The notes under the pieces are model-generated. The model was not told the origin of the DNA. It ran no database searches and saw only the letters and a program-made list of their open reading frames with translations. Source: Gordonia insulae (lineage in GTDB: Bacteria > Actinomycetota > Actinomycetes > Mycobacteriales > Mycobacteriaceae). Taken from it: a stretch of 64,000 bases of DNA. A program made the position numbers and the translations under genes. The stretch covers positions 62,001 to 126,000 of the forward strand of contig NZ_CP033972.1 in NCBI RefSeq assembly GCF_003855095.1, written 5' to 3'. Shown here one piece after another: positions 32,685-40,378 of this stretch. The first letter of the stretch is position 1. Each line of letters begins with the position of its first letter.

Positions 32685-33467
32685 ATGGTGAAGAAGTGTG
32701 CGGTGCATCGCACCAAGATCGAATACGGCAGTGCGCCATCACAATTCGGCCATGTCTATCACCCGGTCGATGGAGTTGCGTCGGATGCGTCGGTGCGGCC
32801 CGTGGTGCTCATCCACGGTGGGTACTGGACGACGGAGTTCGGGCTCACCATCGAGACCGCGATCGCGCGGCTGTTCGCAGAGCGCGGCGCGGTGGTGTGG
32901 AACATCGAGTACCGGCGCGTCGGCGAGCCGGGTGGGGGATGGCCGACGACGGGACGCGACGTCGTCGCGGCCATCCGTGCGCTCGACGGTCCGGTGCCCG
33001 CGGCGCTGCCTGCCGAGGTCGCCGAGCGGGTCGACTGGGGTTCCGTGGCCGTCGTCGGGCATTCCGCCGGTGGTCAACTCGCCGTATGGTCGGTGTCCCA
33101 ACTGCGGGCGCGCACCGACACGTGTGCGATCTCGACGGTCATCGCACAGTCGGCGGCCCTGGATCTGGAGGCGGGCGCGGACCGTCCGTCGATCCGCGGA
33201 CTGATGGGCCGGCCGGCCGACGAGATCCCGCACCGCTACCGCGACGCGTCCCCACTGTGCCAGGAGCCGTTCGAGGCGCATGTCGTCGCGCTGCACGCCG
33301 CGGACGACACCGCCATCCCGGTCGAGTCGAGCCGCCGTTACGTCGAGGCCGTGACGGCACGAGGGCAGTCCGCCGAACTGATCGTCGTCCCGGGCGAGGG
33401 CCATGACGCCTTCGTCGACCCGCGCAGCGCGTCGACCCGACAGACCGTGCGGCTACTGGGTCTCTGA
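32685..33467 (+). CDS. Alpha/beta hydrolase with HGGYW motif (kynurenine formamidase-like)
   Basis: The 260-residue protein carries HGGYW in VVLIHGGYWTTEFGL (about residue 46), the oxyanion-hole motif of kynurenine formamidases. It also has the nucleophile elbow VVGHSAGGQLA (Ser about 127), an Asp in LHAADDTAIPV and the terminal His in GEGHDAFVDP. It may be an arylformamidase or another esterase; no tryptophan-degradation genes are nearby. It begins 10 bp after rsmE and may be read from the same transcript. ATG 32685 is preferred over nearby GTG codons. Confidence 0.78.
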   Translation: MVKKCAVHRTKIEYGSAPSQFGHVYHPVDGVASDASVRPVVLIHGGYWTTEFGLTIETAIARLFAERGAVVWNIEYRRVGEPGGGWPTTGRDVVAAIRALDGPVPAALPAEVAERVDWGSVAVVGHSAGGQLAVWSVSQLRARTDTCAISTVIAQSAALDLEAGADRPSIRGLMGRPADEIPHRYRDASPLCQEPFEAHVVALHAADDTAIPVESSRRYVEAVTARGQSAELIVVPGEGHDAFVDPRSASTRQTVRLLGL

Positions 33468-33603: not shown

Positions 33604-34773
33604 GTGTTTGGCCTCAGATTGCGCCCGGTCGGTCGGCTGTTCGTCGCGGTCGGTGCGACGGTCGCGTCGCTCGCACTCGTGATCTGTGGTGAATCCACGG
33701 TCGCCGCCGAGCCGTCCTCGCCGACCATATGGTTGTGCAGTCCGACGATGGCGTCCGACCCGTGCGATCTCCCTCAGGACACCACCGACCTGTTGACCGG
33801 TCGGGTGAGCGCGCCACCACCGGTGACGGAATCCGAGAAGCCTGTGGATTGCTTCTTCGTGTACGGGACCGCGACGAATGCACTAGCACTCAACGCGGAT
33901 CCCGTTGCGTCGCCCGAGATCCAAGCGGCCGCCAAACTGCATGGCGCACGGTTCAACCGGACGTGCCGCATGTTCGCCCCCGTCTACCGGCAGGTGTCGT
34001 TGCCGGCCGGGGTGCTCGTCAACCTCGGCTTGGCCGAGCCCTTCGCCATCGCCTATCGCGATGTCCGCAAGGCGTGGCGAGAATATCTCGCCCAGGCGGA
34101 CGGTCGGGGAGTGATCTTCATCGCCGATTCGCAGGGCGCCTACCAGCTCCGCAAACTCATCCGCGAAGAAGTCGATCCCCGGCCGGCGCTGCGCAGTCGA
34201 CTCGCCGGCGCATTCCTGATGGGCGCCAACGTGACAACCGCCAGAGGCAGTGTCGTCGGCGGCGACTTCCGCAACATTCCCGTGTGTAGCCGCCGGGGCG
34301 AATACGGCTGCGTGATGGCGTATTCGTCGAACGTCGTCTACCCACCGGTGTCGGCATTCGGCAACAGTGCGGTCGATGTCACGTCGCGGGCGTCGGGATT
34401 ACCTTTCGGGCCGCAGTACCAGGTCGCCTGCACCGACCCGGCGGTGGTGAGCGGCGACCACGCACCGGTCGGCATCACGGTGCCGAGCGAGCCGTTCCCG
34501 CCAGGACTCCTCGCGGGATTTCTGGCCTACGCGAGGTTCCCGGACGCCTGGCCGACGTCGTCCTCGACGTGGACGACCGGCCGCGGTCGCGGGGTGGGTA
34601 GCTGCGACGAGGTGTACGGCATCCGCGAATACCACATTCGGATGATCCGACCGCAGCCGATCAACCAGCTGCCGCTGCTGGACACCCACGATCTCGACTT
34701 CAGTTTCGGGCTCGACCGGCTCGTCGGAATTGCCGCCAGGCAAGCGGAGGACTGGCGAGCACACTCTCGTTGA
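33604..34773 (+). CDS. Exported DUF3089 domain-containing hydrolase-like protein
   Basis: The 389-residue protein has a signal peptide (VAVGATVASLALVICGEST then VAAEP). The rest reads as DUF3089: TIWLCSPTMASDPCDL, KPVDCFFVYGTATNA, CRMFAPVYRQVSLP and GVIFIADSQGAYQLRKLI. DUF3089 proteins look like alpha/beta hydrolases with a GHSQGA nucleophile elbow; here it reads ADSQGA, so the first Gly and His are changed while the Ser is kept. Eight or more Cys suggest disulfides in an exported protein. GTG 33604 has GGGAGG upstream. No partner genes are evident. Confidence 0.75.
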   Translation: MFGLRLRPVGRLFVAVGATVASLALVICGESTVAAEPSSPTIWLCSPTMASDPCDLPQDTTDLLTGRVSAPPPVTESEKPVDCFFVYGTATNALALNADPVASPEIQAAAKLHGARFNRTCRMFAPVYRQVSLPAGVLVNLGLAEPFAIAYRDVRKAWREYLAQADGRGVIFIADSQGAYQLRKLIREEVDPRPALRSRLAGAFLMGANVTTARGSVVGGDFRNIPVCSRRGEYGCVMAYSSNVVYPPVSAFGNSAVDVTSRASGLPFGPQYQVACTDPAVVSGDHAPVGITVPSEPFPPGLLAGFLAYARFPDAWPTSSSTWTTGRGRGVGSCDEVYGIREYHIRMIRPQPINQLPLLDTHDLDFSFGLDRLVGIAARQAEDWRAHSR

Positions 34774-34902
34774 GGTCCGGGTGGGCACACCCTGTGGGGC
34801 GCTGCCCAATAATGCCCAGGTGGCGCCGACTCCGATCGAGTTAGACTGGGGTGATCCGGCGAACGCCGGACCCCGTTCGTCCACTGAGGAGTGATTGCAT
34901 AC

Positions 34903-37068
34903 GTGAGTGACGACAACCCCGACCTGAGCACGCCGACGAGCCGGACTCTTGCGGGTCGATCTGTCACCTCCAACGTGGAAATCTCTCCCGAGGTGGTGTT
35001 CGGGCTGCTCGGGACCAGTGACGTCAACCTCCGCACGCTCGAACAACTGCTGCCGGCGGACATCCACGTGCGCGGCAACCAGGTCACCCTGACCGGTGTG
35101 CCCGCCGACGTCGCGGCCTCGGAACGGGTGATCGCCGAACTCGTCGACCTGGTCGGCCGCGGCACGCCCCTCACCCCCGACCTCGTGCGGCACAGCGTCT
35201 CCATGCTGTCCGAGGGATCCGCCGAATCGCCCGCCGACGTGCTGTCGCTCGACATCCTGTCGCGGCGCGGTAAGACGATCCGTCCGAAGACCCTGAACCA
35301 GAAGAAATACGTCGACGCGATCGACAACAACACGATCGTGTTCGGACTGGGCCCGGCGGGCACCGGCAAGACCTATCTGGCGATGGCCAAGGCCGTGCAG
35401 GCGCTGCAGTCGAAGTCGGTCAACCGCATCATCCTGACCCGGCCCGCCGTCGAGGCCGGTGAGCGCCTCGGCTTCCTGCCGGGCACGCTCAGCGAGAAGA
35501 TCGACCCGTATCTGCGCCCCCTCTACGACGCGCTGCACGACATGATGGACCCGGAATCGATCCCGAAGCTGATGGCCGCGGGCGTCATCGAGGTCGCGCC
35601 GCTCGCATACATGCGTGGGCGGGCCCAGCCCTTGTCGACCAGGGTCCTCACCGCGGCGGGATTCCGGCCGATCGGTGAGTTGCAGGTAGGCGACTCGGTC
35701 ATCGGTTCGGATGGCACGCCCACCGAAGTTCTCGGTGTCTACCCGCAGGGTTTCAAGGACATCGTGCGTGTGACCACCCAGGACGGCGCGTCGACACTGT
35801 GCTCGACGGATCACCTCTGGTCGGTCTACACGCGGTCCGACCGGCGCCGCGGCAAGGGGCCCCGGGTGCTGGCGGCCAAGGAGATGATCGGAAATCTACG
35901 CGCCGCGCATCACCATCGCTTCGAGCTGCCGCTCGTGACCGCGCCGGTGTCTTTGGATGCGCAACCGGTGCCGTTCGATCCCTATGCGCTCGGGTTGATG
36001 CTGGGCGACGGCTGTATGTCCGGCGTGACGACACCGGCCTTCACGACAAAGGACCCGGAACTGGTCGACGCATTGGTGGATGCCGTACCCGGCATTCGCG
36101 CGCGGCAGAGGACCGAGATCGATTACGTGCTCAACCGGATCGCCACACCAGGTGAAGTGATCACCATCGAGAACCCGGTGACCGGCGCGATGCGAGCGCT
36201 GGGACTCTGGGGCACGAAGTCGCCGACGAAGTTCGTGCCGAGGCAGTACCTGCTCAACTCGGCGGCGGTACGGCTCGCGGTGCTGCAGGGTCTGCTGGAC
36301 ACCGACGGTGGGCCGGTTGGTCAGGCGGGACGTACCTGCCGCGTCCAGTACACGACCGTGTCCGACCGACTCCGCGACGACGTGATGTTCCTCGTTCAAT
36401 CGTTGGGCGGCATCGTCACCATGCGCACGCGCGTCGCGGAGGGGCGTAACCCGGGCAAAGCGCGAGGGCGCGAAGTCTCGCACCGCCACGACGCCCATGT
36501 GCTCGACATCCGACTCCCAGCCGAAGTCGCGCCGTTCCGACTCGGCCGCAAGGCGGCCCGCTACAGCGCGGACGGCTTCAAGGAGCCCAAGCGCTACATC
36601 GAGAGCATCGAATCGGAGGGCACCGAGGAGGCCGTCTGCATCAAAGTCGCCGCCGACGATTCGCTGTACGTCACCGAGGACTTCCTGCTGACACACAACA
36701 CGTTGAATGACGCCTTCATCATCCTCGACGAGGCGCAGAACACCACGGGCGAGCAGATGAAGATGTTCCTCACCCGACTGGGTTTCGGCTCCAAGGTGGT
36801 CGTCACCGGTGACACCACGCAGGTCGACCTGCCGGGGGGCGCGCAGAGCGGTCTGAGCGCCGCGACACGCATCCTCGACGGCATCGACGACATCCACTTC
36901 TCGCACCTCACCAGTGCCGACGTGGTCCGGCACCGACTCGTCGCCGACATCGTCGACGCGTACGGCCGGGCAGAGGACAACGAGCGGGGCGGGCGACTGC
37001 GCGATGCCGATCGGTTGCCGGGCAACCGCGCCGCGCGACGGGCGTCGACCCACGGGCGTCGCTCATGA
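34903..37068 (+). CDS. PhoH family ATPase containing an intein
   Basis: The precursor has 721 residues. The extein (362 after splicing) is a PhoH1-type P-loop ATPase: Walker [45 protein letters not shown] split by the intein, Walker [12 protein letters not shown] and [12 protein letters not shown]. The intein takes residues 241-599. PhoH-like proteins are linked to RNA metabolism with YbeY, the next gene, which overlaps by 4 bp. GTG 34903 is preferred because GAGGAG (34886-34891) precedes it at 11 nt; GTG 34891 overlaps that site. Loss of splicing should leave PhoH inactive, because the intein interrupts the RGRT motif. Confidence 0.95.
35623..36699 (+). mobile_element. Class-3-type intein with LAGLIDADG homing endonuclease in PhoH
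   Basis: The 359-residue intein starts with Ala ([16 protein letters not shown]), not Cys or Ser, and ends LLTHN before Thr+1 of the C-extein. It has the three residues that define class 3 inteins: Trp66 two positions after the block B His64 (STDHLW), Cys339 in block F (EAVCIKV) and Thr357 before the terminal His-Asn. In this class the block F Cys attacks the N-terminal junction. Endonuclease motifs are seen at [10 protein letters not shown] (about 121-130) and [10 protein letters not shown] (about 230), so it may still home. The coding DNA is inserted in frame exactly in the RGR/T codons of phoH. Confidence 0.92.
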
Positions 37069-37631
37069 GCATCGAACTCGCCAACGAATCAGGTGTCGAG
37101 GTCCCCGCGGATCTCATCATCGAGGCGGCGCGCTTCGCCATCGTCGCGATGGACGTCCACCCGGCCGCCGAGTTGTCGGTGCTGTGCATCGACGAGGACG
37201 CGATGGCCGACATGCACATGCAATGGATGGACCTGCCCGGCCCGACCGATGTGATGAGCTTCCCGATGGACGAATTGGTGCCGGGCGGGCGACCCGACGC
37301 CGCGGAACCGGGGCCGGCGATCCTCGGTGACATCGTGCTGTGTCCCGCGTTCGCCGCCCAGCAGGCGAAGACCGCGCGTCGCTCGTTCGAGCACGAACTC
37401 TCCATGCTCACCATCCACGGGGTGCTGCACCTTCTCGGGTACGACCACGCCGAGCCGGACGAAGAGAAAGAGATGTTCGGTCTGCAGAACCGGATCCTCG
37501 AGGAGTTCTACGCGGAGCGGCACCGTCGGGCGCAGGAGCAACGGCAGTCCGACCGGGACACACGCCTGCTGACGAACATCGGGTTCACCGAGACGTCGCT
37601 GCCCGAGAACGAAGCGACCGAGGACAAGTGA
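37065..37631 (+). CDS. ybeY: Endoribonuclease YbeY
   Basis: The 188-residue protein has the zinc motif [11 protein letters not shown] (about residues 123-133) and [10 protein letters not shown], typical of YbeY. It is a metal-dependent RNase active in 16S rRNA 3'-end maturation and ribosome quality control. ATGA overlap with phoH and a GTGA overlap with the following CorC-like gene indicate tight translational coupling. The C-terminus is about 40 residues longer than in short family members. Confidence 0.95.
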
Positions 37632-39117
37632 GCGTGCCCGACGACGTCTTGTTCGTCGTGGCCGCCCTCCTGCTCATCGGGATCGGGGGCCTGTTCGCCG
37701 CCATCGACGCAGCCCTCACGACGGTCTCGATGGCCCGTGTCGAGGACATGATGAAAGAGCGGCGGGCCGGCGCGGTCCGACTGGCGACAGTCCTGCAGGG
37801 CCGCGGCACCTACGTCGGTCTCGCCGTACTGATGCGCGTCACGTGCGAGACCGCATCGGTCGCGCTGATCGCCCTGGTCCTCACCGACTCGATCGGCGTC
37901 GGCTGGGGTCTGTTCGCGACGATCATCGGTATGGCGGTGGTCTCCTACATCGCGGTGGGCGTCGGTCCACGCACGCTCGGTCGCCAGCACGCGTACACCA
38001 TCGCGCTCTCGTCGGCGATCGTGTTGCAGGCCATCGGTATTCTGCTGAAACCGTTGACCCGTCTGCTGATCCTGCTCGGCAACGCGGTCACCCCGGGTAA
38101 GGGTTTCCGCAACGGCCCGTTCGCGACTGAGGTCGAGTTGCGTGAGGTCGTCGACCTCGCGGAGGCCAGCGGCGTCGTGGCCGAAGGCGAACGCCGGATG
38201 ATCCAGTCGGTTTTCGACCTCGGGGACACCAATGCCAAAGAGGTGATGGTGCCGCGTCCGGAGATGATCTGGATCGAGGAGGACAAGACCGCGGCGCAGG
38301 CGATGAACCTCGCCGTCCGTTCCGGGCACTCACGAATCCCGGTGATCGGCGAGAACCCCGACGACATCGTCGGGGTGGTCTACCTCAAGGACCTGGTCGC
38401 GGCGGGCGGACCGGCCATGTCGGCACTCGTGCGTGACGCGATGCGCGAAGCCGAGTTCATCCCCGACTCCAAGCCGCTGGACAAGGTGCTCGCCGACATG
38501 CAGCGCACCCGTAACCACATGGCGATGCTGGTCGACGAATACGGCGGAATCGCCGGACTGGTCACCATCGAGGACGTCCTGGAGGAGATCGTCGGGGAGA
38601 TCACCGACGAATACGACACCGACGAGGTGGCACCGGTCGAGGATCTCGAGGACGGGTCCTACCGCGTGTCGGCCCGACTGCCGGTGGAGGACCTCGGCGA
38701 ACTCTTCGGCCTCGACATCGACGACGACGAGGTCGAGACGGTCGGCGGACTGCTCGGACTCGAACTGGGCAGGGTGCCCCTGCCGGGGGCCCGCGTCGAG
38801 TCGAACGGGCTGCTCCTGGTCGCCGAGGGCGGACCGAATCGGCGTGGACGGCAGCGCATCACCACGGTCCTGGTACGCCGGGTCGACGAGCCGGAATCCA
38901 CCGTCGAAGCCGACGGTGACCGTCGCGACGGGCATGCCGACGTCGAGTCCGCGGACACTCCGCCGAGCCCCGGTGACGACGGCGACACCGACACCCCGAG
39001 CGCGCCGTCGCCGAAACCGGACGCGGTGGGGAATACTCCATGTCCAGCCGGGGCCGTTCCCATCGGGGGCACGGCGACCGAGAGCGCGACACCACCCGGA
39101 GCGAGGACCGACCGTGA
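37628..39117 (+). CDS. CNNM/CorC-like hemolysin-family membrane protein, probable frameshift in the C-terminal tail
   Basis: From GTG 37628 the protein has an N-terminal CNNM/DUF21 membrane domain with about three or four helices ([20 protein letters not shown]), paired CBS domains ([17 protein letters not shown] and [19 protein letters not shown]) and a CorC/HlyC C-terminal domain to about residue 420. The family is involved in Mg/Co ion handling. The frame meets no stop until the end of era at 40378. In a neighbouring frame a TGA (39115-39117) overlaps the GTG of the next gene, the usual arrangement. A lost base, for example in G4 at 39028-39031, would explain this. The exact end is therefore inferred. 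Confidence 0.8.
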
Positions 39118-39467
39118 CCCCACCCGCGAGCGGGCCAGAACTGTCCGACGAAGACCAGAAGCTGGTCGTGTTGGCGCGCGGTGCCCTGGCCCGCGCCGAG
39201 ACCAGCAGCGCCGCCGCCGTGCGCGACGGCGACGGGCGGACCTACGCCGGCGCGCCCGTCACGACCAGCACCCTGACACTGTCCGGGCTTCAGGTGGCCG
39301 TCGCGAGTGCGCTGTCGAGCGGCGCGCGCGCATTCGAGGCCGCGGTCCTGGTCAACGGCACCGGCGACGACCCGGGGATGGCCACGCTGTCCGAGATCAG
39401 CCCGGACGCCTATGCGGTGGTGACCGACCTGTCGGGCACCCCCACCGATCGTCAGGACTCCGTCTGA
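39114..39467 (+). CDS. Cytidine-deaminase-like protein (Rv2365c-like)
   Basis: The 117-residue protein starts at GTG 39114 (GAGGA seven bases upstream). It resembles the small conserved protein encoded before era in mycobacteria. [20 protein letters not shown] and [28 protein letters not shown] recall the cytidine deaminase fold, but the catalytic H(A/C)E and PCxxC zinc motifs are absent, so it is unlikely to be an active deaminase. The stop shares a base with the era start. Confidence 0.8.
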
Positions 39468-40378
39468 TGGCCGAATTCCGTTCCGGTTTCGTGTGTTTCG
39501 TCGGCCGCCCGAACACCGGCAAATCCACCCTGACGAATGCCCTCGTCGGTGAGAAGATCGCCATCACTTCCAACCGGCCGCAGACGACCCGCCACACGAT
39601 CCGGGGGATCGTCAACCGCGACGACGCGCAGCTGATCCTGGTGGACACGCCCGGTCTGCATCGCCCGCGGACGCTGCTCGGACAGCGCCTCAACGATCTC
39701 GTGCGCGACACGTACTCCGAGGTCGACGTCATCGGCGTGTGCGTGCCCGCCGACGAGGCCGTCGGGCCCGGTGACCGGTGGATTGTCTCCCAGGTGCGCC
39801 AGATGGCACCCCGCACGACGGTGCTCGGCGTCGTCACCAAGATCGACCGGGTCACCCCGGACCGGGTCGCGGCGCAGTTGATGGCGCTCTCACAGCTCCT
39901 CGGCCCGACGTCCGAGGTGGTGCCCGTGTCGGCGAAGTCGGGCAAGCAACTCGACGTGTTGACCGATGTCCTGGTCGGCTTGATGGACCCGGGGCCGGCC
40001 TTCTACCCCGACGGCGAGCTCACCGACGAGCCCGAGGAGACGTTGATGGCGGAGTTCATCCGCGAGGCCGCGCTCGAGGGCGTTCGCGACGAGCTCCCGC
40101 ATTCGCTGGCGGTCGTGATCGAGGAGGTCATCCCGCGTGATGACGGCGACGGGGATGGCCCGTCGATGGTCGATGTGCACGCGATCCTCTACGTCGAGCG
40201 CGACAGCCAGAAGGGAATCATCATCGGGCACAAGGGCTCACGACTCAAAGAGGTCGGGACCGTCGCCCGCGCCCAGATCGAGAAGTTGTTGGGCACCAAG
40301 ATCTACCTCGATCTGCATGTGAAAGTGGCCAAGGACTGGCAACGGGACCCGAAACAGCTCAGGCGCATGGGTTTCTGA
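39467..40378 (+). CDS. era: GTPase Era
   Basis: The 303-residue GTPase has G1 [14 protein letters not shown] (about 12-25), the G2 Thr in [11 protein letters not shown]3 VDTPGLH and G4 TKID. The C-terminal KH domain includes [27 protein letters not shown]. Era binds the 3' end of 16S rRNA and assists 30S assembly, fitting the nearby ybeY. ATG 39467 shares a base with the preceding stop. The same frame is open far upstream because the CorC-like gene lacks an in-frame stop. Confidence 0.96.

Follow-up and report, generated by a model that had tools for sequence, protein, structure and literature searches.

What kind of element interrupts the phoH gene of Gordonia insulae, and how did it come to be there? 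The gene lies in a stretch of 64,000 nucleotides, referred to here as the window, where the open reading frame 34891-37068 is recognised as PhoH in a Pfam search (PF02562, 299.6 bits in two stretches). PhoH is split between YMRGR and TLNDAF by a frame that stays open over 359 codons without a stop, at exactly the coordinates given in a preliminary description of this DNA. The evidence supports a class 3 intein, for which splicing is predicted from the sequence and the modelled fold. It is very probable that this is a full-length class 3 intein with an endonuclease that copies it into empty phoH genes, and that its family spread across species and then lost the endonuclease piecewise while splicing was kept. 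The intein is seated between the Walker A motif (upstream) and the Walker B region (downstream) of PhoH, with the following parts:

34891..35622, + strand: phoH N-extein, with the Walker A motif GPAGTGKT intact; start probably GTG 34903
35623..36699, + strand: class 3 intein with endonuclease, 359 amino acids; splice junctions RGR/A and HN/T
35623..35862, + strand: N-terminal half of the Hint splicing domain, about residues 1-80, with His64 and Trp66 (codon 35818-35820)
35974..36522, + strand: LAGLIDADG endonuclease domain, about residues 118-300, with D129 (codon 36007-36009) and D228 (codon 36304-36306)
36586..36699, + strand: C-terminal half of the Hint splicing domain, about residues 322-359, with Cys339 (codon 36637-36639)
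36691-36699, + strand: Thr357-His358-Asn359, the end of the C-terminal Hint half
36700..37068, + strand: phoH C-extein, opening with Thr+1 and holding the Walker B region (ILDEAQN)

The assignment to class 3, with a PI-SceI-like endonuclease, follows from an alignment to solved inteins, an AlphaFold model and 46 alleles inserted at the same bond. These alleles, each read at both junctions, come from the window's genus (14; the set is called Gordonia as judged by nearest proteins), other genera of the family (18), a phylum-wide sample (13) and one plasmid-collection record of Nonomuraea. The window intein begins with Ala1, and residue 1 is thus no Cys, Ser or Thr nucleophile. It has Trp66 and Cys339, and Thr357 stands immediately before His358 and Asn359, which are followed by Thr+1. 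The AlphaFold model is confident and shows the Hint fold expected of a class 3 intein. In 6riz, the gp41-1 intein engineered with the class 3 Trp-Cys-Thr (WCT) motif, the residues aligned with Trp66 and Cys339 are F65W and D107C, and block F holds Cys at the position of an Asp in class 1 gp41-1, as seen when 6qaz is compared with 6riz. The WCT residues occupy the correct positions (Trp in block B, Cys in block F and Thr in block G) in all 46 alleles, in which His64, Trp66, Cys339, Thr357, His358 and Asn359 are invariant. The preliminary description had named Ala1, the WCT residues, the terminal His-Asn and Thr+1 correctly, and had let its class assignment depend on whether Trp66 and Cys339 match the known blocks, which they do.

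The endonuclease appears to be PI-SceI-like and intact, as the same description had proposed and as sequence and predicted fold now support. Both of the LAGLIDADG motifs that it had recognised are present (ALGLMLGDG at residues 122-130 and a second at 220-229), and the Pfam family LAGLIDADG_3 is matched with 33.9 bits against a cut-off of 22.5. Each motif retains an acidic residue, with D129 and D228 aligning with residues 218 and 326 of PI-SceI, which we take to be its catalytic residues. Both Asp are retained in 34 of the 38 full-length alleles. The remaining 8 of the 46 alleles are reduced to 261-319 residues by partial deletion of the endonuclease; two of them (G033 and G222) keep both Asp, and all eight keep the splicing residues. 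The species G013 (L121) and G049 (L003) are close relatives by their downstream genes; the intein of G049 is full-length, and that of G013 is shortened to 319 residues, carries D129E and K203E and retains every splicing residue.

The insertion bond is RGR/T in every one of the 46 alleles, in agreement with the site proposed in PhoH; comparison with intein-free phoH genes had also been suggested. Among the 59 species sampled from the window's genus, the intein is present in 14 (occupied) and absent from 45 (empty), with an uninterrupted joint in all of the latter (RGR-T, or RGR-S in G039; G010 has an assembly gap after the joint). The same-bond alleles and the uninterrupted joints together indicate that the insert is not a chance feature of the open reading frame. 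The phoH tree pairs occupied G054 with empty G024 as sisters, with a support of 100 in the Shimodaira-Hasegawa-like approximate likelihood ratio test (SH-aLRT). Beyond the genus, a family sample of 401 genomes contains 53 of the window's genus, and at least 18 of the other 348 carry a PhoH intein. Of 396 genomes sampled across the phylum, 62 give a match to the intein with an E-value of at most 0.001, other inteins included; in 16 of the 396 it interrupts PhoH and both junctions were read, and in one more (G419) it does so with only the first junction read. In a large protein set, the intein part alone matches at least 4923 among 7993 scored candidates. An extein tree of 77 rows requires 8 occupancy changes, at least 4 of them on starred branches, a number that gives no rate, as its 20 non-Gordonia rows were chosen mainly as occupied (18 of 20). 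The best tree nests four inteins of another genus within the occupied species of the window's genus; transfer between genera was considered and is not established, since a single clade of window-genus inteins is not rejected (approximately unbiased (AU) test, p 0.129).

A sign of movement between species is found in G041, for which trees were made from 17 rows (13 of the 14 occupied species and four of another genus). The G041 intein groups with those of G040 and G050, with a bootstrap of 100 and SH-aLRT of 99.9 for DNA (99/98 for protein), and forcing it together with G049, G013 and G000, the genome of the window, is rejected (AU p 2.2e-6 for DNA and 0.0089 for protein). The G041 exteins, on the other hand, group with G049 and G013 (97/96), a grouping with G040 and G050 being rejected (p 0.029), and so, independently, do the 3.2 kb downstream of phoH (100/100; p 7.5e-5 against G040 and G050, 17 rows). 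Synonymous distances agree with this conflict: between G041 and G040 they are 0.76 for the exteins, 0.41 for Hint and 0.52 for the endonuclease, and between G041 and G049 they are 0.49, 0.80 and 1.41, respectively. Switch points were sought at sites agreeing with only one of two relatives, in four comparisons, with one switch per side and 1000 shuffles. The left switch falls 43 to 4 bp before the first intein base, with none of the 1000 shuffles as strong in any comparison, and the right switch lies in the interval from 6 bp within the intein to 12 bp beyond its final base (0, 0, 0 and 2 of 1000 shuffles as strong). The moved unit is therefore close to the intein alone, and these sequence patterns suggest that a near-exact intein unit moved in G041, as expected from homing with short co-conversion.

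The window's own locus presents a broader exchange, which involves a neighbouring gene:

33604..34773, + strand: DUF3089 gene, upstream of phoH, which aligns only in G049 and G013 among eight relatives

At third positions, the N-extein of G000 is 80-82% identical to those of G049 and G013 and 66-73% identical to those of the six other relatives. The corresponding values in the endonuclease are 65-68% and, among these six, 46-55% for the five that are occupied; in the C-extein they are 63-64%, compared with 63-71% for the other relatives. Four comparisons each place one switch, at 36723-36735, 36780-36810, 36516-36521 and 36660-36664, with none of 1000 shuffles as strong, which corresponds to 183 bp before to 111 bp after the 3' junction (36699/36700); a control comparison without G049 or G013 gives no switch (222 of 1000 shuffles). 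Judged by these identities and switches, the DNA exchanged with the G049/G013 line reaches from roughly the DUF3089 gene to the vicinity of the 3' junction. Further upstream, an alpha/beta hydrolase gene (window 32800-33467, + strand) has its closer counterparts in G040 and G050: in steps of 200 bases the values are 84-89% for these two and 77-83% for G049 and G013. The surroundings of phoH are accordingly a mosaic of exchanged segments.

Under the favoured explanation, Cys339, rather than residue 1, would attack the bond preceding Ala1 after translation, the N-extein would then be handed to Thr+1, and Asn359 would cyclise with the help of His358, leaving PhoH ligated as ...YMRGR-TLNDAF.... 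Intein-free phoH would probably be cleaved at RGR/T by the LAGLIDADG domain through D129 and D228, whereupon repair would copy the intein in. Selection on the endonuclease, the occupancy of one common site and the switch points are indirect signs of such cleavage. By such homing the allele family would spread across species, later shedding the endonuclease piecemeal with splicing retained. A class 1 or class 2 splicing chemistry in place of class 3 is very improbable indeed, given that the window allele and 43 others start with Ala, that block F carries Cys in place of the Asp of class 1 gp41-1 and that no allele departs from WCT, although two of the 46 alleles start with Ser and residue 1 is thus not strictly non-nucleophilic in the family. 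It is also improbable that the intein is kept as a switch, with conditional splicing in response to redox, metal or stress setting PhoH activity, and the preliminary description went further than the evidence in proposing that splicing would control PhoH. The insert between Walker A and Walker B should leave the precursor inactive, and an additional Cys60 is found in 30 of the 46 alleles. Furthermore, splicing of the class 3 DnaB intein of M. smegmatis is inhibited by oxidation and zinc, according to the relevant parts of two papers (PMC6195587, PMC7360933). Nevertheless, Cys60 is not universal, and with 45 of the 59 species of the genus lacking the intein, a selfish element is the better fit.

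A further alternative is that the class 3 intein splices but has an endonuclease that is now inactive, so that the intein is moved passively by ordinary homologous recombination of phoH. This is rather unlikely, even though two catalytic Asp are necessary and not sufficient, the endonuclease has decayed in 8 of the 46 alleles, and the stretch shared at the window's locus takes in about 3 kb upstream, with the DUF3089 gene. It is opposed by the switch points of G041, which hug the intein on both sides as would be rare under random recombination, and by the constraint on the endonuclease. The ratio of nonsynonymous to synonymous substitution rates (dN/dS) was obtained for 45 pairs of ten full-length alleles of the window's genus, pairs which share branches, are not independent and often have synonymous distances near saturation; its median is 0.106 in the endonuclease, near that of Hint (0.095, 43 pairs usable), and 0.059 in the exteins. 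The interdependence and saturation of these pairs are among the points that weigh against active class 3 splicing and homing. So do the two alleles with Ser1; gp41-1 engineered with WCT, which, in the pertinent part of PMC7664689, mostly cleaved, so that WCT alone is no guarantee of splicing; the four full-length alleles without one catalytic Asp (G084, G375, G731 and G775); and the two pairs with G026 in which endonuclease dN/dS reaches 0.52-0.55, which means that constraint is not uniform among the copies. Moreover, the G041 grouping was named with the trees already in view; ordinary homologous recombination could move inteins too, and it accounts for the exchange at the window's locus no less well than homing. 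That homing caused the transfers is what we infer.

With regard to the origin of the PhoH site, a single branch separates 30 PhoH inteins from 15 fetched relatives (support 100/99.7), in a tree with several long branches among the relatives. Such a single origin, together with the bond common to the 46 alleles, defines one PhoH RGR/T family, and because the 30 inteins fall on one side, the site was probably invaded once by this family and shared afterwards. Related inteins are matched in 773 of 50,697 phage records and 33 of 72,556 plasmid records, all phage matches being below 60% identity and the best among the matches listed at about 41%. Gly-Lys precedes the intein in 14 of the 15 fetched relatives, directly at the matched start in 12 and upstream of it by one residue in L157 and by four in L162; a rougher pattern scan finds it in only 5 of 12 printed loci (L069 being common to both sets). 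A change of target from Gly-Lys to Gly-Arg/Thr in the family is therefore a suggestion only, weakly drawn from a sample of best hits. The combined proposal, in which a still-homing unit crosses species borders in one genus and descends from inteins located behind Gly-Lys in ATPases and retargeted to the Gly-Arg/Thr of PhoH, with the P-loop GTGK/T untouched, is tentative and somewhat doubtful. Phage PhoH was considered as a source and rejected, as the relatives in GX15bay (L083) and Eggerthella phage LE2-3 (L084) are not at RGR/T and fall outside the PhoH clade; the PhoH annotation of these genes may have come from the intein.

The host gene and its surroundings can be described further. phoH probably starts at GTG 34903, which is preceded by GAGGAG; the spliced length of 362 residues foreseen in the preliminary description holds for this start, whereas GTG 34891 would give 366. 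The nearest named proteins are from Gordonia, the best with 93% identity over the whole protein. Downstream of phoH lies one more gene of note:

37065..37631, + strand: ybeY (PF02130), whose start overlaps the phoH stop codon

The genome is a single contig of 5.96 Mb with one copy of the PhoH intein when the window intein is the query, and this query and LAGLIDADG_3 find no further intein in it; Pfam PF14890 gives no match over the genome and misses the PhoH intein itself, so that it is uninformative on other inteins. A second PhoH-family region lies outside the window (contig C1:1704874-1705224, - strand; 33% identity over query residues 133-245), in an open frame of 436 residues in which the same intein was not found. 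Within the window, at 37340-40378 (+ strand), a CNNM/CBS/CorC gene and era form a single open frame of 1012 residues. The two are split by a stop codon in all eight relatives checked, and the fusion may be genuine or may stem from a sequence error close to where the CorC gene ends.

Compared with known systems, PI-SceI, the yeast VMA intein, is a class 1 intein of 454 residues, longer than the window intein and in a different host. M. smegmatis DnaBi1 (6bs8) and M. chimaera DnaB1 (6rix) are class 3 mini-inteins in DnaB which, unlike the window intein, are without an endonuclease. Gene 2 of Mycobacterium phage Phrappuccino (terminase in one record) has about 41% identity over all 359 residues and the same block residues; the full-length phage and plasmid relatives sit in other host proteins, and the 15 fetched ones fall outside the PhoH clade. 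As far as the portions concerned go, PMC5050341 argues for class 3 intein transfer between mycobacteriophages and hosts and for P-loop insertion, with PhoH absent. The rarity claimed in the preliminary description was overstated: Fig. 6a of PMC6195587 includes class 3 PhoH inteins from M. fortuitum (OBK00716) and from M. xenopi (EID13626), M. smegmatis is said in a portion of PMC7360933 to carry a PhoH intein, and the same-site insert is present in the 16 phylum genomes mentioned above. As far as that figure goes, the M. fortuitum and M. xenopi inteins share host protein and class with the window intein and differ in genus, and their insertion site would be the same, judging from other family members; Mycolicibacterium PhoH proteins are 72-77% identical to the whole window protein, with the endonuclease domain present. 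No Gordonia PhoH intein is named in the titles or abstract openings of the open-licence literature searched. The kind of intein is thus already described, and the novelty is the unusually direct natural evidence of its movement. One genus offers empty alleles, full-length alleles and alleles with a decaying endonuclease and fixed splicing residues, including the full-length and reduced pair of G049 and G013, and this set, with the empty site of G024, makes the cycle of invasion, decay and loss of a class 3 intein testable with natural alleles.
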